This document shows positions 49,747 to 60,828 of a DNA stretch of 64,000 bases, piece after piece. Source of the DNA: Streptomyces sp. NBC_01216 (GTDB lineage Bacteria > Actinomycetota > Actinomycetes > Streptomycetales > Streptomycetaceae); assembly GCF_035994945.1 (NCBI RefSeq), contig NZ_CP108677.1:6696001-6760000 (forward strand). Direction: 5' to 3'. Below the pieces are notes generated by a model. The model did not search any database. It was given only the letters and a program-made list of their open reading frames with translations, and had not been told where the DNA came from. How positions within the stretch are numbered: position 1 is the first letter of the stretch; the number at the start of each line of letters is the position of its first letter. The position numbers and the translations under genes were made by a program.

Positions 49747-50418
49747 TCAGGACGGGGCCGGGTGCACCGGGCCGGAACCGGCGAGCGGCCCTGTTCCCGG
49801 CCGCTCCCCGGACCCGCTCGCGGGCGCCGCCGCGTCCTCGTACGTCAGGCGGTCGACGACCTCCACCACCCCGTCCACGCTCTCGCAGAGCCGCACGAAG
49901 ACCGGAGCCGCGCCGGCCCGTTCCAGGGTCCCGCTCAGTGTGACCCGTCCCTCGTCGACGTCGACGTGGAGCGACGCGGGGGACAGCCCGAGGATGCGGG
50001 TGACCACATCCTCCAGGATCTCCTCCTGGATCGCGCGGTCACGCCGAAGGAACAGCTGGAGCAGGTCGCTCCGGCTGAGCACCCCGATCAGCTGTCCGCC
50101 GGAGTCCACCACCGGCAGTCGCTTGACGCGGTGCCGCTCCATGAGCCGCACGGCCTCGACCGCAGTCCACGAGGGCCTGGCCACCACCACGGGGCTACTC
50201 ATCATCGCCTCCGCCGTACTGGGGCCCTCCTTCGCGGTGTGCCGGCGCAGCAGATCGGCCTCGGAGACCACCCCCACGGGCCGATTGGCCTCGTCCACCA
50301 CCGGTACGGCGGTGATCCCGTACTCGTCGAGCAGCCGCGCGATCTCCTTGAAGGACGTCCCGGGCTGCACGGCCACCGCGGTGGGAGTCATCAGATCGGC
50401 CACACTGCGGTTCCTCAT
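49747..50418 (-). CDS. CBS-pair and BON domain protein
   Basis: A 223-residue protein. Two CBS motifs (residues ~8-60 and 75-130; MTPTAVAVQPGTSFKEIARL and MMSSPVVVARPSWTAVEAVR) form a nucleotide-sensing pair, followed by a BON domain (~140-195, SLHVDVDEGRVTLSGTLERA). Such proteins in Streptomyces are thought to be stress or energy sensors. The Ser/Gly/Pro tail is disordered. Monocistronic. Confidence 0.9.
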   Translation of the reverse strand: MRNRSVADLMTPTAVAVQPGTSFKEIARLLDEYGITAVPVVDEANRPVGVVSEADLLRRHTAKEGPSTAEAMMSSPVVVARPSWTAVEAVRLMERHRVKRLPVVDSGGQLIGVLSRSDLLQLFLRRDRAIQEEILEDVVTRILGLSPASLHVDVDEGRVTLSGTLERAGAAPVFVRLCESVDGVVEVVDRLTYEDAAAPASGSGERPGTGPLAGSGPVHPAPS

Positions 50419-50585: not shown

Positions 50586-51830
50586 TCAGTCGAACGGGTC
50601 GAGCGTGAGGTACGCGCGCTGCGGAGCCCCGTCGTGGACCAGCGACTCGTGTGCGCCGACGTCGTCGAAGGCGAAGCCGTACGCCTTGCCGTCGGCCATC
50701 CGCGCGTGGATCTCCTTCGCGTACTGGTTGGTCACGGCGTCCTGGTAGAAGCCGGCCGCAGAAGAGTCCGGCTGCCGGGGGTTGGTCAGCAGCGTGGAAC
50801 GGTTGAAGCCCGCGCACAGCGTGCGCGAGAGCGGGCCGCGCACCTGGTCGTTGGGTGCGTCGAGCAGCTTGTAGCAGCCGAAGACACTGTCCGAGTCCGG
50901 CTTCCGGAAGGAGGTGACGACGGCGCCCGAGCCGTCGGTGAAGTTCATGACGCCGCCGGAGACCCGGCCGTAGTACTTCACGGCCGGCCGGTCCTTGAAG
51001 GGGGTCACGGTCAGCGTCGTGCCCGCGTACCGGGCCCAGACGCGGTCGATGTAGTCGTCCATCACGTTCGGCGGGAGCGCTCCGGCCTCGATGCCGTGGC
51101 CCGGCGCCAGGGCCCGCAGGACCGTGCCGTCGGCGCGGGTCTGGACGAGGCCGGCCCAGCCGCCGGGCCGGGCGCGCAGCGCGTCGAAGAACCCGCGGTA
51201 GCCGCCGGGCCGGAGCCGTCCGGTGGTGGCCACGCTGCCGTCGGGGCGTCGGACGCCCACGGCGTACGGGGCGGAGAACATGTCGACCTGGGTGCTGTTG
51301 ATCCACAGGCCGGCGTCGTTGAGGGTGTACTCCGACCAGTTGAAGAGGATGGAGCGGTTGGGGTCGCTCGGGTTCTGTATCGCCGGCTGCACCAGGCCGC
51401 CGGTCGCGACCTTGAGGGCGAGCTTCTGTCCGTAACTGAAGTAGATCCGGCCGGAGAACTTCGGCATGCGGATCGTCACGGACCGGCCTCGGGCGGGCCC
51501 GGGGAGGGCGGCGTCGGGTGCGGGTACGGGTACGGAGCCGCCGGCGGGCCAGGGGTGGAAGGTGCCGTCCGCGTCCGCCCAGCCCTGTCGGCCGGTCGAG
51601 AGCTCGGTACCCAGGTTGTACACGTAGACCTGGTCGTCGCGGCCGGAGTCGTTCGTGATGGTGAGCGGGATCGAGGCGGGAACCGCGGTGGCGGCGTCGG
51701 CGGCCCCGGGCTCCACGGTGCCTGCCTGGACGGTGGGGGACGGCCCGGCGACGGTCAGCGTGACACCGGTGACCGCGGCCAGGGCGAGCGGGACGACGAG
51801 CGTGAGCCTGCGGCGGTGGGGGGAGGGCAT
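50586..51830 (-). CDS. Secreted glycoside hydrolase family 64 (beta-1,3-glucanase)
   Basis: A 414-residue exported enzyme with a ~36-residue signal peptide. The GH64 fold is recognisable from PLTITNDSGRDDQVYVYNLG at the start, SILFNWSEYTLNDAGLWIN, and the C-terminal YAFDD-like stretch KAYGFAFDDVGAHESLV. GH64 enzymes release laminari-pentaose from fungal beta-1,3-glucan. No binding domain is attached. A LacI-type palindrome 70 bases upstream suggests sugar-responsive repression. Confidence 0.9.
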   Translation of the reverse strand: MPSPHRRRLTLVVPLALAAVTGVTLTVAGPSPTVQAGTVEPGAADAATAVPASIPLTITNDSGRDDQVYVYNLGTELSTGRQGWADADGTFHPWPAGGSVPVPAPDAALPGPARGRSVTIRMPKFSGRIYFSYGQKLALKVATGGLVQPAIQNPSDPNRSILFNWSEYTLNDAGLWINSTQVDMFSAPYAVGVRRPDGSVATTGRLRPGGYRGFFDALRARPGGWAGLVQTRADGTVLRALAPGHGIEAGALPPNVMDDYIDRVWARYAGTTLTVTPFKDRPAVKYYGRVSGGVMNFTDGSGAVVTSFRKPDSDSVFGCYKLLDAPNDQVRGPLSRTLCAGFNRSTLLTNPRQPDSSAAGFYQDAVTNQYAKEIHARMADGKAYGFAFDDVGAHESLVHDGAPQRAYLTLDPFD

Positions 51831-52983: not shown

Positions 52984-54402
52984 TCACAGCACCGGCCGGG
53001 GGCCCGGCGGGAACCCGGCCTCCGTCGGCGCTTCCGCGCCGAGGGTGCCCGGGGAACTGCCGCCCTGCCGCGTGCCGCCGCCCGAGGCGGACCCGCCCGT
53101 CGTGCCGTCCGTGACGGTTCCCTCGGTCCCCGGCAGCGACTGCGGCGCGGGCGACGCGGGGGAATCCGAGTCCGGTGGCGGCTGCGGCGGTTCCGGTGAG
53201 ACCGGCGAGGCGGGTGAGACGGGAGAGCGCGGAGTGCTGGGCGAGGAGGTGGATTTCGACGGGCAGGGGGTCGGGGTGACCGTGCCCCGGGGCTTCGGGG
53301 TCTCCGTGCCGGTGATCGTCACGCACGGCACCGGAGAGGACGGGGAGGTCGAACCGGAGTCCGACACGGAGGGCGACGGCGGTGCCGTCGGGGGAGTGGT
53401 GTGCTTGTCCTTGCCGCCCGTGTCACCCGGCTCGCGGGTGAACCAGTCGCCGTCGGAGGGGTCGAACACGACGAACACGTTCACCACCGTCACCGACGGT
53501 GCCACCACGACGACCTGCGCGGGCTGGTATCCGGGCCAGGCCGCTCCGGTGGTCTTCGGCGACTTCTGGGCGACGGGCGGGGTCAGCGGGTTCCCGCAGG
53601 CGCAGCGGACCCGGGGCACCCCGCGGTCGTCGACGAGCACCGCCGTACCGGCCTGGAGCACGGACTGGTACGCGGTGGCGGTGCCGTCCCGGAAGCCGTG
53701 GTTCGTCACCCGGGTGTCGACCCGGAGCTGGAGCGGCGTCAAGGAACGCAGATATCCCGGCACCTCGTTCGCGGAGATGCCGAGGACCGAGGCGAAGGAC
53801 GCGTTCTGCGCGGGCGCGGCGGTCAGGAAGCGCACCTGCTGTTCCACGTCACAGCTCGCGGCGTTCCTGGTACCGCCGTACAGTCCCGGCGCCGCACCGG
53901 AGACGCTGCGCGTCGCGTTGGCGTCCGCCGACCCGGTGGGGCTGGGCAGCGTGGCCGCCGAGGGGGAGGCGTCGGGCGCGCGGGCCGTCGAGGGGGTGAA
54001 CGGGTCGGGGCCGGTGGCGGAGGCGTTCTGGAGGAACACCTCGCCGCCGCCGGAGGCACTGCCGCCGCCCCCGTTGCCGTCCGGACGGGTCAGTACGACG
54101 ACCAAGGCGACGGCGGCGACCAGCGCGGCCGCGATCGAGGCGACCTTCGGGACGGAGCGCCACCAGGGCCGCCCGCCTCCTCCGTCCCCGGAACCACCCG
54201 CGCCCGCACCGGGGCCACTCGCCCCGCCGGACGAGCCGTCCCCGCCGCCGGGCCCTCCTCCCCCGCCGGACCCGCCGCCCGGCCGGTCCGGCGGGGGAGG
54301 AGGGCCGGCCGAGCCCGGCGACGTGCTCGGGCCCGAGAGGGGGCCGGAGGGAGGGCCTGCGGGGGGAACCGAGGGGCGGCCGGACGGCGGGTGGGAAGTC
54401 AC
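52984..54402 (-). CDS. Proline-rich single-pass membrane protein (DUF6777-like)
   Basis: A ~472-residue protein. A ~80-residue Pro/Gly/Ser cytosolic lead is followed by one membrane helix (VASIAAALVAAVALVVVLT, residues ~84-102). An extracellular domain follows (~110-330) with single cysteines in ASCDVEQQV and RCACGNPL, then a long Ser/Pro/Thr-rich tail. I recall this type as DUF6777 in Streptomyces, usually beside FHA/kinase genes; function unknown. GTG 54402 is the start, after GAAAGGG. It is divergent from the streptophobe-like gene. Confidence 0.75.
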   Translation of the reverse strand: MTSHPPSGRPSVPPAGPPSGPLSGPSTSPGSAGPPPPPDRPGGGSGGGGGPGGGDGSSGGASGPGAGAGGSGDGGGGRPWWRSVPKVASIAAALVAAVALVVVLTRPDGNGGGGSASGGGEVFLQNASATGPDPFTPSTARAPDASPSAATLPSPTGSADANATRSVSGAAPGLYGGTRNAASCDVEQQVRFLTAAPAQNASFASVLGISANEVPGYLRSLTPLQLRVDTRVTNHGFRDGTATAYQSVLQAGTAVLVDDRGVPRVRCACGNPLTPPVAQKSPKTTGAAWPGYQPAQVVVVAPSVTVVNVFVVFDPSDGDWFTREPGDTGGKDKHTTPPTAPPSPSVSDSGSTSPSSPVPCVTITGTETPKPRGTVTPTPCPSKSTSSPSTPRSPVSPASPVSPEPPQPPPDSDSPASPAPQSLPGTEGTVTDGTTGGSASGGGTRQGGSSPGTLGAEAPTEAGFPPGPRPVL

Positions 54403-54496
54403 GTTTTTTCCCTTTCTTCCGTACCCGGCCCATTGTGTGCGCGGGACGGGTGCCGCCCGCAAGCGGACCGCGGCCGTCGGCATTAGCGTGAGCCGG

Positions 54497-55825
54497 GTGA
54501 ACCGTCAGGTCCCCACCCCGCCCCGCCCGCCGGGCGGCGCGCACCTGGCCCGCCCGGCGGCCCAGGTGCTGGCCGCGGTCCTCGCGGGCTTCCTCGCCAT
54601 GGCCGTCGTCGCCGCGCTCGGTCTGTGGGCCGCCGGAGCCGCCGATCTGCCCGGCGGCTTCGTCAACGTGGTCGCCGCCGTCGTCGTCATGGCGGTCGGC
54701 GGCCAGGTCGAACTCTCCGGGGACGCCGGCGCGCTCGCCGGCACCGACGTGGAGATCACCGCGATGCCGCTCACCGTCACCCTGGTGGGCGCACTCGTCA
54801 CGGGATACTGCTTCCTGCGCCCCCTGCGGCACCACGCCGTCGCCCGCCCCGGCGAACTCCTCGGCCGTGCCGCCGCCGTGGTGGTGCTCTGGCTGGCCGC
54901 GCTCGCCGGACTGTCCGCCCTGGCCGGTCACGACTTCCCCCTCACCTTCTCCGGCGGTGACCGGATCGAGGGGCTGCCCGACATCTTCGGCCTTCTTCTC
55001 GACGCGGCGAACCCGACCGTGGGCTTCCGTACCGCACTCGGCCCGACCCTCCTCTTCGGCCTCCTGTGGATCCTCGGCGTCCTGCTCATCGCGCTGCTGG
55101 TCTCCCGCCGGACGCCTCTGCCACCGCGGTTCCTGCGGTACCGGGAACCGGTGCGCCCGGCGGCCTCGGCCATGCTGCTGCTGGTCCTCGGCTACGTCGT
55201 CATCGGCCTCGGTACCGGCGTGGTCGTCGCGGCCACCCAGGGGCACGCGGCGGAGACCCTCGCCGTGTTGCTGCTCGGGCTGCCCAACGTCGTCTGGCTC
55301 GCCCTCGGCGTCGGCATCGGGGGCGCCTGGGACGGCCGGGTGGACGGCCCGTTCGGACTGCCCATGCCCCCGATCCTCGACGCTGTGCTGCGAGGCCCGG
55401 ACACCTCCGAACTGTCCACCGTGGACCTCTCCTCGCTCACCTCGTACGACGCCCGGGCCTGGTGGCTCCTCCCCGTCGCCGCGGTGCTCGTCCTCGTCGC
55501 GGCCTTCGTCGCGGCCGTACGTTCCCCGGCACGCTTCCGGCCCTGGCAGCACGCCGTGCACTTCGCGATCGCCTTCGCCCTCACCATGCTGGTCGTCACG
55601 CCGATCACGCTCGTGGAGGCGAAGGTCGGCCTCTCCGTCCTCGGGATCGGGGACCTCGGCGGCCTCGGAGGTGAGGTCGTACTCCGCCCGCGGGTGTGGC
55701 GCACCGCCGGTCTGGCCCTGCTCTGGGGCGCTGTCGCCGGATTCCTCGGCGGCCTGCTCGCCACCGGCGTCGACCGCCACGGCGAGGTCGGGGCGGGGCC
55801 CCCTCCGCCCGGCCGGCGACGCTGA
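54497..55825 (+). CDS. Streptophobe-like polytopic membrane protein
   Basis: A ~442-residue integral membrane protein with about eight to ten helices and almost no soluble domain. Its start (RPAAQVLAAVLAGFLAMAVV) and repeated Ala/Leu/Val helices fit the streptophobe family, found in Streptomyces without known function. GTG 54497 or GTG 54488 are possible starts. It sits between the proline-rich protein (divergent) and the kinase (convergent), and so is probably part of the same functional neighbourhood. Confidence 0.75.
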   Translation: MNRQVPTPPRPPGGAHLARPAAQVLAAVLAGFLAMAVVAALGLWAAGAADLPGGFVNVVAAVVVMAVGGQVELSGDAGALAGTDVEITAMPLTVTLVGALVTGYCFLRPLRHHAVARPGELLGRAAAVVVLWLAALAGLSALAGHDFPLTFSGGDRIEGLPDIFGLLLDAANPTVGFRTALGPTLLFGLLWILGVLLIALLVSRRTPLPPRFLRYREPVRPAASAMLLLVLGYVVIGLGTGVVVAATQGHAAETLAVLLLGLPNVVWLALGVGIGGAWDGRVDGPFGLPMPPILDAVLRGPDTSELSTVDLSSLTSYDARAWWLLPVAAVLVLVAAFVAAVRSPARFRPWQHAVHFAIAFALTMLVVTPITLVEAKVGLSVLGIGDLGGLGGEVVLRPRVWRTAGLALLWGAVAGFLGGLLATGVDRHGEVGAGPPPPGRRR

Positions 55826-55851
55826 GCGCGCCGCCTGCCGGTCCGGCTCAG
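55822..55851. terminator. Short hairpin between convergent genes
   Basis: CTGAGC (55822-55827) pairs with GCTCAG (55846-55851), overlapping the ends of both the streptophobe-like and kinase genes; a weak bidirectional terminator candidate. Confidence 0.45.
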
Positions 55852-56837
55852 GGCACCTGCCGGAACACCGGCAGGGCCCACCGCGGCGGCGCCGGCGGCG
55901 GACCCGGCGGCCGGGGCCCGGCGCCCTCCGGCGGCACCGGACCCGGGGCGGCCCCCTCCAGTGCGGCCCGCAGATCGGCCACGAACTCCAGGCACGTGTC
56001 GTAACGCTCCTCCGGCGCCTTCGCCAGTGCCTTCGCGAGCACCGCGTCGGCCGCCTCGGGCAGCCCTGGGCACTCCGCCGACAGCCGGGGCGCGGGATCG
56101 TACTGATGGGCCCAGAGCAGCGCCATGTCGTCGTCGCGGCGGAACGGCGGCACACCGGTCAACGTCTCGAACACCACGCACCCGAAGCCGTAGACGTCGC
56201 ACCGGCCGTCCACCGGCTTCCCCGAGATCTGTTCCGGGGCGACGTAGTCCAGGGTGCCCACGAACTGACCCACCGTCGTCAGGCCCGTCAGCGACAGCGA
56301 CTTCTTCGTGAGACCGAAGTCCGTGAGGTACACGTGCTCCGGATGGTCGCGGTCCGTACCCTCCGCGACCAGGATGTTGCCCGGTTTGACGTCCCGGTGC
56401 ACGAGGTCGTGCGCGTGCGCCGCGTCCAGCGCCGAGGCGACCTGGACGGCGATCCGGCCGGCCTTCGCCGCCGGCAGCCGCCCCTCCCGGTCCAGCAGCG
56501 CGCGCAGGTCCTGCCCGGCGACGTACCGCATCGCGATGTACAGCACGCCCTCCGTCTCCCCCGCCTCGAACACGGGCACGATGTGCGGATGGTCGATCGC
56601 CGCGGCCACCCGTGACTCGTGCGCGAAGCGTTTGCGGAAGGTGTCGTTGCGGGCCAGTTCGGGGGCCAGCAGCTTCAGTGCGACCGTGCGGTCCAGCCGC
56701 AGGTCGTGGGCGCGGTACACGACGGCCATCCCGCCGCGTCCGATCTCGGCCTCCACGACGTAGCCCGCGATCTGCTTGCCGACGAGCCCCGAGGGCCGGC
56801 CGGCCGGGAGGTCCGCGCCCCGGGTGGCCCCGGCCAT
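55848..56837 (-). CDS. Soluble serine/threonine protein kinase (Pkn type)
   Basis: A 329-residue Hanks-type kinase. The glycine loop IGRGGMAVVYRAHD, catalytic Lys near 52, HRDVKPGN near 147, DFG near 173 and an activation loop rich in Ser/Thr (KKSLSLTGLTTVGQFVGT) are all present. Unlike PknB it has no membrane helix or PASTA domain; the chain ends in a Pro-rich tail. It is third in the leftward operon after the FHA-ABC exporter and SH3-like genes, with a one-base overlap upstream (TGATG), so these proteins are likely substrates. Confidence 0.93.
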   Translation of the reverse strand: MAGATRGADLPAGRPSGLVGKQIAGYVVEAEIGRGGMAVVYRAHDLRLDRTVALKLLAPELARNDTFRKRFAHESRVAAAIDHPHIVPVFEAGETEGVLYIAMRYVAGQDLRALLDREGRLPAAKAGRIAVQVASALDAAHAHDLVHRDVKPGNILVAEGTDRDHPEHVYLTDFGLTKKSLSLTGLTTVGQFVGTLDYVAPEQISGKPVDGRCDVYGFGCVVFETLTGVPPFRRDDDMALLWAHQYDPAPRLSAECPGLPEAADAVLAKALAKAPEERYDTCLEFVADLRAALEGAAPGPVPPEGAGPRPPGPPPAPPRWALPVFRQVP

Positions 56838-57523
56838 CAGTCCTCACCCGTCGGGTGCGGACCGTTCACGACCTGGGTGGGCGGCGGCCCGGCGGGCGCG
56901 GCCGGTGGCCCCCCGGCCTCATCGAGCCCCTCCACGATCCGCGTCGGTTCGTGGCCCGGGACTTCCCTCCTGTCCGTACCGTCTGTCTCATTCGCCCTGT
57001 CCGTCTTGTCCGGCGCGGCCGAGACCGCGTACGTACCGAGCACCGTCCCGTCGCAGAACACCCAGCGTTCGTGCTCGGCGTCGTACAGCCACAGAGCCTC
57101 GCCGTCGACGACCATCCCCACCCGCAGCCCCCGGGTACGCCGGTGGAAGGCGTCGGCGTCGGCGCGTCCGGCCGCCAGCTCCTCCGCCGCGCGACGGTAA
57201 CGGCCCAGCGACTCCTCGGCGCGCGCGATCAGCTGCCGCGGATCGGCCGTCCGGGCGAGCGGCTTGCGGGCCGCGGGCGGGTCCACCGGGACGGAGACGA
57301 GGAGTCGGGCGTCGACCCAGGCCGACCAGCCGTTGGAGCACAGGACCCGTCCCCAGTCGCCGACCCGCTCCATCAGTTCCACCGGCAGGAACGCGTCGAG
57401 CGGCTCGGCCGGAAGGCCCGGGTCGGGAGCCTCCCATGTCGACAGACCGTCCCGGGGCACGACGTGCGTCGGCCGGAACTCGGGCATCTCGTCCGGGACG
57501 GGGGGAGTGACGGGGATGGCCAT
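56837..57523 (-). CDS. SH3-like adaptor with candidate phospho-threonine tail
   Basis: A 228-residue protein of unknown family. The N-terminal half has an SH3-like strand pattern (MERVGDWGRVLCSNGWSAWV). A helical middle (IARAEESLGRYRRAAEEL) leads to a small beta region (GMVVDGEALWLYDAEHERWV), then an acidic tail. The tail holds threonines with V, V and D at position +3 (PTRIV near 194, PTQVV near 216, PTGED near 225), contexts FHA domains favour. Encoded between an FHA-ABC exporter and a kinase, it looks like a link between them. AGGAGG precedes ATG 57523. Confidence 0.75.
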   Translation of the reverse strand: MAIPVTPPVPDEMPEFRPTHVVPRDGLSTWEAPDPGLPAEPLDAFLPVELMERVGDWGRVLCSNGWSAWVDARLLVSVPVDPPAARKPLARTADPRQLIARAEESLGRYRRAAEELAAGRADADAFHRRTRGLRVGMVVDGEALWLYDAEHERWVFCDGTVLGTYAVSAAPDKTDRANETDGTDRREVPGHEPTRIVEGLDEAGGPPAAPAGPPPTQVVNGPHPTGED

Positions 57524-57584
57524 GGGCCTCCTGTCTTCGCTGCGCGCGGCACGTCGGACGACGCCGGACGGGCGGGGAGCCGGG

Positions 57585-60011
57585 CTACTTCCGCATGATC
57601 GCGGGCTCGTGGCGCCGCAACAGCCGGGCGACCGCATAGCCCAGCACCAGGCAGAGCACGACCAGCATCCCCATGTCGAACAACCAGGCCTCCAGCGTGT
57701 GGTGCATCAGCGGATCCGCGGTCTTGTCGCTCGGCGCGACAGCGCCGATGTCGATCGTCGCGCCCATCGCGGCGAACGCCCACCGCGACGGCACGAGCCA
57801 GGCCAGCTGCTCCAGGACCGGCGCGCCGCGCACGGTCAGCAGCGCCCCGCAGAACACCACCTGCACGATGGCGAGGAGGACCAGCAGCGGCATGGTCACC
57901 TCCTCCTTGCGCACCAGGGCGGAGACGAACAAGCCCAGCATCATCGCCGTGAAGGCGAGCAGGGCGACGGCGAGCGTGAGTTCCACCAGCGGCGGGAAGA
58001 GCACACCCTTGCCGCCCGGCACGTTGAGCGGTACCCCGATGAGCGCGACCAGGGTCAGCACCACCGCCTGCACCACGGTGATCGTGCCGAGCACGACGAT
58101 CTTCGACATCAGGTAGGCGGAACGCGAGAGCCCGACGGCTCTCTCCCGTCGGTAGATCGTCCGTTCCTTGACCAGCTCGCGCACCGCGTTTGCGGCTCCC
58201 GTCAGCACCCCGCCCACACACAGGATGAGCAGGACGTTCAGCGTCGACTCGGGGTTCAGACTGCCCTCGGAGAGCGCCCGCGCCATCGCCCCCATCACGA
58301 ACGGCAACGCGACCATGATGACCAGGAACGTCCGGTCGGCGGCCAGGGCGGTGGTGTAGCGCCGGACGAGGGTGCGCAGCTGGGAACCCCAGCTCTGCGC
58401 CTTCGGCGGCGGTCCGGGCTCCGGGGCCGACACCGGTCCGGCGGCGGCCGGTCCGGGCCGCCGCATGGCGTCGGCGATGTACTGCCGGTGGAACCGGGAG
58501 GCACGGTACTGCCCCGCCCAGTCCCGGTCCCGGTCGTTCTCGAACGCCTCGAACGCCTCCGGCCACTGGCCGAACCGGAAGAAGCCCAGGGTGTCGTCGG
58601 GCGGACCGTAGTACGCGATCCGTCCGCCCGGCGCGAGCACCAGGAGACGGTCGCAGACGTCCAGGCTGAGCACGCTGTGCGTGACCACGATGACGGTACG
58701 GCCGTCGTCGGCGAGTCCCCGCAGCATGTGCATCACCGAACGGTCCATCCCGGGGTCGAGTCCGGAGGTCGGTTCGTCGAGAAAGAGCAACGACGGTTTG
58801 GTGAGCAGTTCCAGGGCCACGCTGACCCGCTTGCGCTGCCCGCCGGACAGGCTGTGGATGGGTTGGTCGACCCGCTCGCCCAGACCCAGTTCGCGGATCA
58901 CCTCGTCGACCCGCGCCCGGCGCTCGGACGCCTCGGTGTCCTCGGGGAAACGGAGTTCGGCCGCGTAGCCGAGCGCCCGCCGCACGGTCAGCTGGAGGTG
59001 CAGGATGTCGTCCTGCGGGACGAGCCCGATGCGCTGGCGCAGCTCCGCGTAGTCGCGGTAGAGGTCCCGGCCGTCGTACAGCACCGAGCCCCGCTCCGCC
59101 GGCCGTTGTCCGGTGAGCGCGCCGAGCAGGGTCGACTTGCCGGCACCGGACGGGCCGACCACGGCGAGCAGGCACTTCTGCCCTACGGGGAAGGACACGT
59201 CCTCCAGCAGCGTCTTCCTCCCGTGGTCCACGGTCACGGCGAGATCCTGCACGTCCAGTGACACCTCTCCGGTGTCGGTGAACTCGACGAGATTGTCGCC
59301 CAGCAGGCAGAAGGCCGCGTGCCCGATGCCGACGATGTCGTCCGCCGTGACCCGGGATCGCTCGACGCGACGGCCGTTGAGATAGGTGCCGTTGTGACTG
59401 CCGAGGTCGTGGATCCAGTACGTCCCGTCGGGGTGGGCCAGGAGTTCGGCGTGGCGTCGCGAGACCACCAGATCGTCGACGACCAGGTCGTTGTCGGGGG
59501 CGCGCCCGATGCGCACGGTCCTGGTGGGCAGCGGCCGCACGGACGTCGGCTGCCGGAAGGTGCCGGTCGCCGCCGGATGCGCGACGGACGAGGGGCGGGG
59601 CGGTGTGCGGGGCGGGGCGGGGGCGGGCGGACGCGGCTCCGGATTCGGCGGCGGTACGGGCGTCGGTGGCTCCGGCTCACGCGGAGGCGCCGTGCGGGAG
59701 AGGACGGCGAGCGGTCCGTCCCAGGGGTGCCCGAAGCGGATGACCGAGCCCGGTCCCACCTCCTGGTCCGCCTGGACGCGATGACTGTCCGCGTAGGTGC
59801 CGTTCGTGCTGTGCTCGTCCTCCAGTGCCCAGTGGTCGCCCTCGACGTGCAGCACCGCGTGGTGCCACGACGTCCGGGCGTCGGCGAGCACGATGTCACT
59901 GGTGGGGTCGCGCCCGATGCGATAGACGCGGCCCGGACTCATCAGGGTCGCGTCCCCGTCGATCTCGAGGACCAGTTCGGGCGCGGCGGGCGCGCCGGGC
60001 CGCTCTCCCAT
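57585..60011 (-). CDS. ABC exporter with two FHA domains (Rv1747-like)
   Basis: An 808-residue fused exporter. The first FHA domain spans residues ~20-100 (RIGRDPTSDIVLAD, STNGTYAD), then a Pro-rich linker, and the second FHA spans ~165-250 (RIGRAPDNDLVVDD, SHNGTYLNG). The ATPase has Walker A GPSGAGKST near 287 and signature LSGGQRKRVSV near 389. The C-terminal ABC-2 membrane domain has about six helices. This is the architecture of Mycobacterium tuberculosis Rv1747, which is phosphorylated by PknF and exports cell-envelope material. It heads the operon with the SH3-like protein and kinase. Confidence 0.93.
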   Translation of the reverse strand: MGERPGAPAAPELVLEIDGDATLMSPGRVYRIGRDPTSDIVLADARTSWHHAVLHVEGDHWALEDEHSTNGTYADSHRVQADQEVGPGSVIRFGHPWDGPLAVLSRTAPPREPEPPTPVPPPNPEPRPPAPAPPRTPPRPSSVAHPAATGTFRQPTSVRPLPTRTVRIGRAPDNDLVVDDLVVSRRHAELLAHPDGTYWIHDLGSHNGTYLNGRRVERSRVTADDIVGIGHAAFCLLGDNLVEFTDTGEVSLDVQDLAVTVDHGRKTLLEDVSFPVGQKCLLAVVGPSGAGKSTLLGALTGQRPAERGSVLYDGRDLYRDYAELRQRIGLVPQDDILHLQLTVRRALGYAAELRFPEDTEASERRARVDEVIRELGLGERVDQPIHSLSGGQRKRVSVALELLTKPSLLFLDEPTSGLDPGMDRSVMHMLRGLADDGRTVIVVTHSVLSLDVCDRLLVLAPGGRIAYYGPPDDTLGFFRFGQWPEAFEAFENDRDRDWAGQYRASRFHRQYIADAMRRPGPAAAGPVSAPEPGPPPKAQSWGSQLRTLVRRYTTALAADRTFLVIMVALPFVMGAMARALSEGSLNPESTLNVLLILCVGGVLTGAANAVRELVKERTIYRRERAVGLSRSAYLMSKIVVLGTITVVQAVVLTLVALIGVPLNVPGGKGVLFPPLVELTLAVALLAFTAMMLGLFVSALVRKEEVTMPLLVLLAIVQVVFCGALLTVRGAPVLEQLAWLVPSRWAFAAMGATIDIGAVAPSDKTADPLMHHTLEAWLFDMGMLVVLCLVLGYAVARLLRRHEPAIMRK

Positions 60012-60099
60012 GCGTGAATTTTATCTTCCGGTGCCCATCCGTGCCTGCGAGAGCCGCGGGTATCGTGAGGCGCCCGGAACCGGACCAAGGAGCCCACCC

Positions 60100-60828
60100 G
60101 TGCCGAGAGGTGTCACCAAGGGCCGGCCCCGCACCCGGGCGGCCTTGCTCAAGGCGGCTCTGGAGACCTTCGCCGAGCACGGTTTCCACGCCGCCACCAT
60201 CGAGCAGGTCTGCGAACGGGCCGGCTACACCAGGGGTGCCTACTACTCGAACTTCGCGGGCAAGGAAGAGCTCTTCCTCGCCCTCTTCGACGAGCACAGC
60301 GAGCGCACCGTGGTCCGCCTCGCCGAAGCGATCGACGGGCTGCCGGCCGAGGAGTACACCCTCGGCCGGCTCGCGGAACTGGCCTCCCGCGTCGAGCCGG
60401 ACGAACGGGACTGGTACCTCGTCACCACCGAGTTCACCCTGCACGCCATCCGCGACCCGCAGGCGGCCTGGGTCCTCGCCCGCCACGACGCCCGGCTGCG
60501 CGCCGAGATAGCCCGCGGCCTGACGGCCGTGTTGCGCCGGGCGGGGCGTGAGCTGACCGTGGACGCGGACCGGTTCGCGCGGCTGATGATCGCCCTGCGG
60601 GAGGGCGGCCTGGCGCAGAGCTACGTCGAACCGGAGGAACTCCCCCCGGGCGCGCTCGAGCGGGATTTCCTGGCCGGACTGGTCGGGGCGTTCACCCGCC
60701 CCGCCGAAGGGCCCTCGCCGGCCGGAGCGGGTGAGGCGGCCCGGCCGGGGGAGACGTCCGGCGCGGGCGGGCCGGGGGTGCCGCGGGCGGACCAGTCGAG
60801 GAGACCGGGGTCGGAGACCGCGATCTGA
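60100..60828 (+). CDS. TetR-family transcriptional regulator
   Basis: A ~242-residue regulator. The N-terminal TetR helix-turn-helix reads LKAALETFAEHGFHAATIEQ VCERAG, then YTRGAYYSNFAGKEELF. The helical ligand domain runs to about residue 205. The remaining ~38 residues (Pro/Gly/Ala-rich) are low-complexity and overlap an antisense coding-like fragment, so the native stop may have been lost. GTG 60100 follows AAGGAG by 8 bases. It is divergent from the FHA-ABC exporter and may repress it. Confidence 0.88.
   Translation: MPRGVTKGRPRTRAALLKAALETFAEHGFHAATIEQVCERAGYTRGAYYSNFAGKEELFLALFDEHSERTVVRLAEAIDGLPAEEYTLGRLAELASRVEPDERDWYLVTTEFTLHAIRDPQAAWVLARHDARLRAEIARGLTAVLRRAGRELTVDADRFARLMIALREGGLAQSYVEPEELPPGALERDFLAGLVGAFTRPAEGPSPAGAGEAARPGETSGAGGPGVPRADQSRRPGSETAI

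Follow-up and report, generated by a model that had tools for sequence, protein, structure and literature searches.

What might a small protein do whose gene is wedged between those of an ABC exporter with two forkhead-associated (FHA) domains and of a Ser/Thr kinase? The question is raised by a locus of Streptomyces sp. NBC_01216, contained in a stretch of 64,000 nucleotides (contig NZ_CP108677.1, positions 6,696,001 to 6,760,000), called the window here and numbered from its first letter. The genes of the FHA-ABC exporter (57585..60011, minus strand; 808 amino acids (aa)), of the small protein, here termed the adaptor (56837..57523, minus strand; 228 aa), and of a Hanks-type Ser/Thr kinase (55848..56837, minus strand; 329 aa) form one tight leftward operon, the last two overlapping by 1 base. 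An earlier interpretation made from the letters alone (the sequence-only reading) had described this operon, its overlap and two adjoining genes for a streptophobe-like and a proline-rich membrane protein, all of which we recovered as described, the proline-rich protein being a DUF6777 protein. It had further suggested that threonines at the end of the adaptor are phosphorylated and bound by the FHA domains. With moderate confidence, we propose that the kinase phosphorylates threonines of the adaptor tail and that the phosphorylated tail docks on the FHA domains of the exporter, clustering and activating this predicted exporter.

The adaptor tail, beginning after residue 168 or so, is disordered-looking and unalignable, with much Pro, Ala and Gly and a greatly varying length. 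In the window it contains the motif copies EPTRIV (T194; 56933..56950, minus strand) and PTQVV (T216; 56867..56881, minus strand), and a third threonine followed at +3 by Asp (T225; 56849..56851, minus strand). Identical adaptor sequences were merged (178 reduced to 164); our two locus sets together then gave 141 distinct Streptomyces tails, and the strict motif [PA]T[RQK][VIL][VIL] was present in 126 of them; 84 of the 141 have two or more copies, 30 have four or more, and the maximum is 14 (L186). One tail scored as motif-negative (L145) has a masked stretch. In the first set, at least one strict motif occurs in 63 of 78 tails (75 of the genus of the window, including the window itself, and three of another family) against a mean of 0.17 for shuffled tails, and in the best 80 of 382 named loci it occurs in 76, with a shuffled mean of 0.24. 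It is also found in 31 of 38 Streptomyces representatives after thinning to cores less than 80% identical. Val occupies position +3 in 337 of 371 cases, Glu position −2 in 235 of 354 and Arg position +1 in 205 of 353, and +2 and +3 are mostly Val, TRVV being the commonest type of Streptomyces repeat. The idea that Val at +3 marks these threonines was borne out more strongly than a single sequence could show. As for the three threonines named as FHA contexts, T194 and T216 lie within the conserved motif, while T225 with its +3 Asp falls outside it (tails of L121 to L123) and is not conserved.

Shuffling does not correct for kinship, and a Thr/Ser comparison and a paired-retention test were therefore added. 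The frame [PA]X[RQK][VIL][VIL] occurs 350 times, with Thr at X in 340 cases, Ala in five, Ser in one and another residue in four, while outside the motif frame the tails hold nearly equal numbers of Thr and Ser (615 versus 602). The exclusion of Ser from the motif is clear, although the figure of 340 overstates the number of events, because the copies of a tandem array do not count as independent. As FHA domains recognize phospho-Thr but do not bind phospho-Ser, the preference fits FHA readers. Relatives were compared in 65 disjoint pairs, their cores having a mean identity of 0.87; between partners, the threonine is retained in 238 of 322 motif positions versus 150 of 554 other tail positions, in an alignment that somewhat favours the pairing of motifs. 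Synonymous change among identical residues is 0.38 in the motif and 0.40 outside; with synonymous divergence equal, the retention points to constraint on the protein rather than slowly changing DNA.

These data bear directly on the view that the tail is a low-complexity spacer whose motif arose incidentally, by slippage of repeats in GC-rich DNA, and has no phospho-dependent role. The composition and variable length of the tails agree with it, and near-identical codons in L055 and L062 make some arrays look like recent duplications. Slippage would account neither for the exclusion of Ser nor for motif residues being kept while synonymous divergence inside the motif matches that outside, and it also conflicts with the concentration of 853 of the 1329 aliphatic residues of the 141 tails at T+2 or T+3, i.e., at 1875 of 13309 positions. 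We therefore regard it as highly improbable.

Within the module, the motif is largely confined to the adaptor. T[RQK][VIL][VIL] was found in four of 77 exporters, one of 73 kinases, one of 70 streptophobes and five of 65 DUF6777 proteins. A transfer of the motif to another gene of the module in motif-lacking lineages was looked for and not found; a lone HAPTQVV is present in the C-terminal tail of the L050 kinase. At the DNA level, the 7.7-Mb genome contains the pattern PT[RQH]VV at 31 sites and the reversed control at 23, and the adaptor gene alone has two of the 31 within 1 kb, one of them being the PTHVV of its SH3 region. Seven of the 31 sites are one identical 14-mer, which probably reflects a multicopy gene, for example rRNA. 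The tail presents the sequence expected of an FHA client, namely a conserved site that is Thr rather than Ser and has a preferred +3 residue.

The putative reader is the exporter of the same operon. Its single chain is organized as FHA1, linker, FHA2, ABC ATPase and ABC-2 membrane domain (Pfam FHA twice, ABC_tran and ABC2_membrane), with six transmembrane (TM)-like stretches. FHA1 spans about residues 18-95 (59727..59960, minus strand), with R34, S48, H51 and N70 as its presumed phospho-Thr site, assigned by us from the FHA consensus; FHA2 spans about residues 160-234 (59310..59534, minus strand), with R170, S184, R185, H187 and N207. Both stretches match chains of Rv1747 from Mycobacterium tuberculosis (6ccd, 1.8e-5; 6cah, 2.8e-13), the latter being the closest PDB chain to FHA2, which upholds the earlier assignment of an Rv1747-type layout. 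Among the exporters compared (61 motif-bearing, 12 motif-lacking, 22 from other genera), the FHA1 site hardly varies, the exceptions being a few rows with gaps and one or two that deviate, and the FHA2 residues are kept in every row of all groups except one gapped row. Judged by these residues, both FHA domains have an intact phospho-Thr site. Their conservation speaks for competence to bind phospho-Thr rather than for specificity towards the tail.

Just before FHA2, at residues 149-161, the linker contains the stretch TGTFRQPTSVRPL (59529..59567, minus strand), a candidate cis phospho-site. Across 95 orthologous exporters it keeps T149 in 91, R153 in 94, P155 in 93, T156 in 80 (otherwise mostly Ser) and V158 in 86, and it is conserved also in lineages without the tail motif. 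One could thus imagine a mechanism in cis, as in Rv1747, in which the kinase acts mainly on this linker (RxP[TS]xV before FHA2), with the adaptor serving as a kinase scaffold and its tail being a secondary or competing FHA ligand. Such a mechanism is suggested by the conservation of the linker stretch across orthologues, whereas the tail motif is not kept beyond one clade, and by an adaptor core that is conserved without the motif. It also has precedents: Rv1747 is described as a substrate of the kinase PknF (PMC3908365), and phosphorylation by PknF as favouring condensation of the Rv1747 FHA-linker region (PMC9312465). On the other hand, T156 is not Thr in 15 of the 95 exporters, including six of the 12 Streptomyces exporters whose adaptor has no motif, and a cis mechanism leaves the 340 to 1 ratio of Thr to Ser, the +3 Val and the expansions of the tail unexplained. 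We consider it unlikely as the main mode of action.

The proposed docking of the tail on the exporter of its own operon gains from the conservation of the gene set. Of 80 adaptor loci fetched, three with divergent or broken adaptor relatives (L085, L086, L087) were dropped, and in the remaining 77, which do not count the window, the exporter lies directly upstream of the adaptor in 75 (exceptions L051 and L093) and the kinase downstream in 71 (in L035 the sequence ends there; exceptions L043, L051, L082, L096 and L102). The streptophobe gene is found in 68 of these loci, on the opposite strand and downstream in 67 of the 68, and the DUF6777 gene in 64, on the same strand and downstream in 63 of the 64; several loci are short. 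With start codons picked by a simple rule, the exporter stop and the adaptor start are separated by −25 to +50 bases in 68 of 75 loci, and the last 1 to 11 bases of the adaptor gene are shared with the kinase gene in 58 of the 71 loci measured. A second set, the best (closest) 80 of 382 named loci, has the exporter in 80, the kinase in 75, the streptophobe in 67 and DUF6777 in 51, and four of the five named loci without kinase are on contigs ending within about 0.6 kb. Named carriers of the module with both motif and kinase include the soil species S. gardneri (L147), S. filamentosus (L149) and S. noursei (L192). The counts of the two sets (L025-L104 and L121-L200) are not independent, as they share species. 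The gene set is a real and conserved module. In it, adaptor and kinase show co-conservation with the exporter; the streptophobe and DUF6777 genes travel with the operon, and their products may be outer parts of the same machine, as the sequence-only reading suggested.

The adaptor was found in 105 of 200 genomes of the genus of the window, in 58 of 121 genomes of its family (six of 17 genera) and in three genomes from another family of the same order; in a class-wide sample of 246 genomes, with at most 11 candidate places scored per genome, all 15 adaptor hits are within Streptomyces. Among 61 genomes, with orthologues defined by at least 60% identity over the FHA half, the exporter is encoded in 23 of 23 adaptor-positive genomes and in one of 38 adaptor-negative genomes (G017, where the gene runs off the contig). 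A DUF6777 gene, at whatever position, is present in each of the 23 and in nine of the 38. The 17 adaptor-negative genomes of the same genus in this set include ten with paralogous FHA-ABC exporters alone (E up to 1e-30) and six with none.

Such paralogues raise the question of whether the phosphorylated tail might be read by another FHA protein or by a paralogous FHA-ABC exporter. The genome indeed encodes a second FHA-ABC exporter (L105, G000:C1, about 5820000-5822600) that is 48% identical in the FHA stretch and 56% over query residues 153-808; the paralogue family retains the same key FHA residues (the pocket Arg, Ser, His and Asn, gapped or deviant rows aside), and the motif would suit any FHA domain preferring an aliphatic +3 residue. 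The adaptor is, however, found only where the orthologous exporter occurs (23 of 23 genomes), directly downstream of it in 75 of 77 loci, and in 14 fetched paralogue loci (45-56% identity) neither adaptor nor kinase gave a match above 60 bits. A reader other than the exporter of the operon is thus quite improbable in our view.

When did the motif arise? In a quick tree of 101 adaptor cores (a short search, with most branches not starred), there is a main Streptomyces clade of 74 rows, its support of 89 not being starred; the motif occurs in 73 of them, be it strict or in a looser T[RQK]-hydrophobic form. Rows outside this clade have no strict motif; L227, merged as near L223, has it. The strict-motif label needs at least seven changes on this tree. 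High copy numbers occur in different subclades (nine in L062, eight in L053, seven in L033, five in L066 and L074), partly beside rows with one or two copies (L045 and L038 beside L062, L035 beside L053), and the arrays thus grew several times. In 20 loci from five sister genera, the exporter is present in 19 and the kinase in 18. L223 and L224 have KTRVV, several others (e.g., L222, L228, L232, L234) a single terminal PTR, and the rest no such motif. As the sister genera keep the trio without the motif, the trio looks older, and one large Streptomyces clade probably added the motif to an exporter-adaptor-kinase trio that already existed and works without it elsewhere. A co-loss of kinase and motif was considered and dropped: it is seen once (L043/L193, S. 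wuyuanensis) and contradicted by L051, L082, L096 and L102.

Several of these observations weigh against tail docking as proposed. The strict motif is missing from 15 of the 141 Streptomyces tails, eight of which have the looser form and seven none, and it is found in only one of the 20 sister-genus loci (L227), though the trio is retained, and in none of the three loci of another family. Being derived and near-absent from sister genera with the trio, it need not reflect the original function of the trio. Four motif-bearing loci (L051, L082, L096, L102) have no adjacent kinase. The FHA residues are the same in motif-lacking lineages, and their conservation alone therefore does not point to the tail. 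By analogy with known systems docking could inhibit rather than activate, and the cell's other FHA proteins could serve as readers of the tail. The tail-to-FHA idea is well supported comparatively for the main Streptomyces clade, as a derived and not a universal trait, with a kinase that is not always adjacent. To the extent that sequences can tell, neither outcome that the sequence-only reading had named as its refutation came about, given the co-conservation of the three genes and the retention of the tail threonines in the form of a motif.

The part of the adaptor that is conserved even where the motif is missing is its core (residues 14-168), predicted to consist of an SH3-type domain (residues 14-82; 57278..57484, minus strand), a helical hairpin and a small beta unit. 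The model used is a deeper one of the core and replaces an earlier shallow one with a mean pLDDT of 61.2. Fold comparison supports the predicted SH3-type fold for the N-terminal half of the adaptor, in rows spanning model residues 1-69 only. Among 76 adaptor cores searched against Pfam with E up to 1, SH3_4 matches 37 (best 3.9e-4) and SH3_3 seven (best 5.6e-6). The window adaptor itself has no SH3 family match and no Pfam or NCBIfam family above cut-off, its only match being TIGR04211 below its cut-off (E 0.06), and a PDB sequence search with the adaptor profile A1 gave no match. Many bacterial SH3 proteins act outside the membrane; unlike them, the adaptor has no TM-like stretch, none being detected in the 78 adaptors scanned. 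The sequence PTHVV at adaptor residues 18-22 matches the tail motif but was not counted as a docking site: it falls inside the modelled SH3-type domain and is largely retained where tails have no motif.

Some loci deviate from the common arrangement. In L051, a related kinase is encoded about 8 kb away on the opposite strand. The module of this genome (G171) looks split, with the L051 contig containing the motif-bearing adaptor and DUF6777 and no exporter, and another contig (L087) containing the exporter, the streptophobe and a poorly matching, perhaps degraded adaptor. L093 has adaptor, kinase, streptophobe and DUF6777, with no exporter match within its 17-kb stretch. L085 and L086 encode shorter adaptor relatives (33-34% identity) lacking the tail motif, with no matching exporter nearby. 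The record JOFO01000087.1 (L156), titled Microtetraspora glauca, bears a Streptomyces-type module, and its public name may be wrong.

In the mechanism we propose, the kinase would phosphorylate the motif threonines of the tail, which is predicted to be disordered. Once phosphorylated, the tail would dock on the FHA domains of the exporter encoded in the same operon and thereby cluster and activate this exporter. The kinase (PF00069, 158.7 bits) contains HRDVKPGN, DFG and APE and has a proline-rich C-terminus. The SH3-type domain may hold the adaptor on a proline-rich partner, be it this kinase tail, the exporter linker or the DUF6777 N-terminus. That docking would promote rather than block export is proposed with low certainty, since docking of the M. 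tuberculosis protein Rv2623 is reported as negative and modulation of Rv1747 by PknF as positive. A more speculative extension, which we put forward tentatively, is that the adaptor acts as an expandable array of phospho-Thr stickers, in which each phosphorylated PTRVV or PTQVV bridges an FHA domain and the number of repeats (1 to 14, depending on the species) tunes the clustering or condensation of exporters in the membrane. The copy number would then set how many exporters a single adaptor bridges, and the stickers reported in the FHA-linker region of Rv1747 would have moved to a trans-acting, evolvable scaffold.

Two further genes accompany the operon. The streptophobe-family membrane protein (445 aa; 54488..55825, plus strand; NF038391, 478.7 bits with a cut-off of 60) has ten TM-like stretches, and its gene is convergent with that of the kinase and hence not part of the operon. 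A streptophobe-family gene also lies, on the other strand, beside the paralogous exporter in six of the 14 paralogue loci (L105, L108, L112, L113, L116 and L117 of L105-L118), so that FHA-ABC exporters in general may have a partner from this family. The DUF6777 protein (52984..54483, minus strand; 499 aa in the longest open reading frame; PF20568, 252.2 bits with a cut-off of 27) has a proline-rich N-terminus followed by a TM-like stretch and the DUF6777 domain, and GTG at 54402 may be its true start. Divergent from the exporter lies a TetR regulator gene (60010..60828), matched among the fetched loci only in the near relatives L026-L032. To the left of the module are genes for a GH64 beta-1,3-glucanase (50586..51830; PF16483, 345.8 bits) and a CBS-BON protein (49747..50418). 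A role as a defence system was rejected: the PADLOC hits of the kinase are kinase models, mostly PD-T4-6, those of the exporter are weak ATPase hits, and the adaptor has none.

If the proposed mechanism is true, the locus offers a soil-bacterium model for FHA-ABC exporters with a dedicated multivalent phospho-ligand, in which FHA control of ABC exporters and the dependence of clustering on ligand valency become testable via natural repeat numbers. It would also provide a clear case of a bacterial phospho-dependent short linear motif evolving by copy number, and functional hypotheses for two families of unknown role, DUF6777 and streptophobe. In the open-access literature searched, we found no published description of the exporter-adaptor-kinase trio.

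Parts of the trio resemble known systems. In proteins of the GarA/OdhI type, chains of which are related in sequence to FHA2 of the exporter, phospho-Thr and FHA domain are within one small protein, whereas the Streptomyces ligand and reader are in different proteins. In the type VI secretion system of Agrobacterium, the kinase PpkA is reported to phosphorylate a Thr of its partner TssL, which is then bound by the FHA protein Fha, activating secretion (PMC3953482); this differs in the unrelated secretion machine, the single site and an FHA domain that belongs to a protein of its own, Fha, and not to the transporter.

The closest counterpart is in M. tuberculosis. Like the Streptomyces exporter, Rv1747 combines two FHA domains, a disordered linker, and ATPase and membrane domains in one chain, its FHA domains are homologous in sequence to those of the exporter, and a Ser/Thr kinase gene is nearby, that of PknF being adjacent and its product being reported to modulate Rv1747 positively (PMC3908365). 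Its separate partner Rv2623 offers the most direct parallel to the tail. PMC5549992 states that FHA domains read the +3 residue; that Rv2623 binds FHA I and not FHA II of Rv1747; that its T237 is phosphorylated in vitro, with T237A weakening and not abolishing FHA I binding; that the modelled docking motif is pTRVV, the docking itself being computed; and that Rv2623 regulates growth negatively. These data are independent experimental support that this type of exporter can read TRVV, the same tetrapeptide as in the adaptor. No homology was seen between Rv2623 and the adaptor, and the motif is present as one copy in a folded universal stress protein in the former and in up to 14 copies in the disordered-looking tail of an SH3-type protein in the latter.

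PknF-type kinases are membrane-anchored; the window kinase has no TM-like stretch, and a simple hydropathy scan detected one in two of 73 kinases. The Streptomyces arrangement differs further in that the kinase gene is downstream, with the adaptor gene between it and the exporter. The module is thus a variant of the Rv1747-PknF exporter system with a new component acting in trans, the adaptor.

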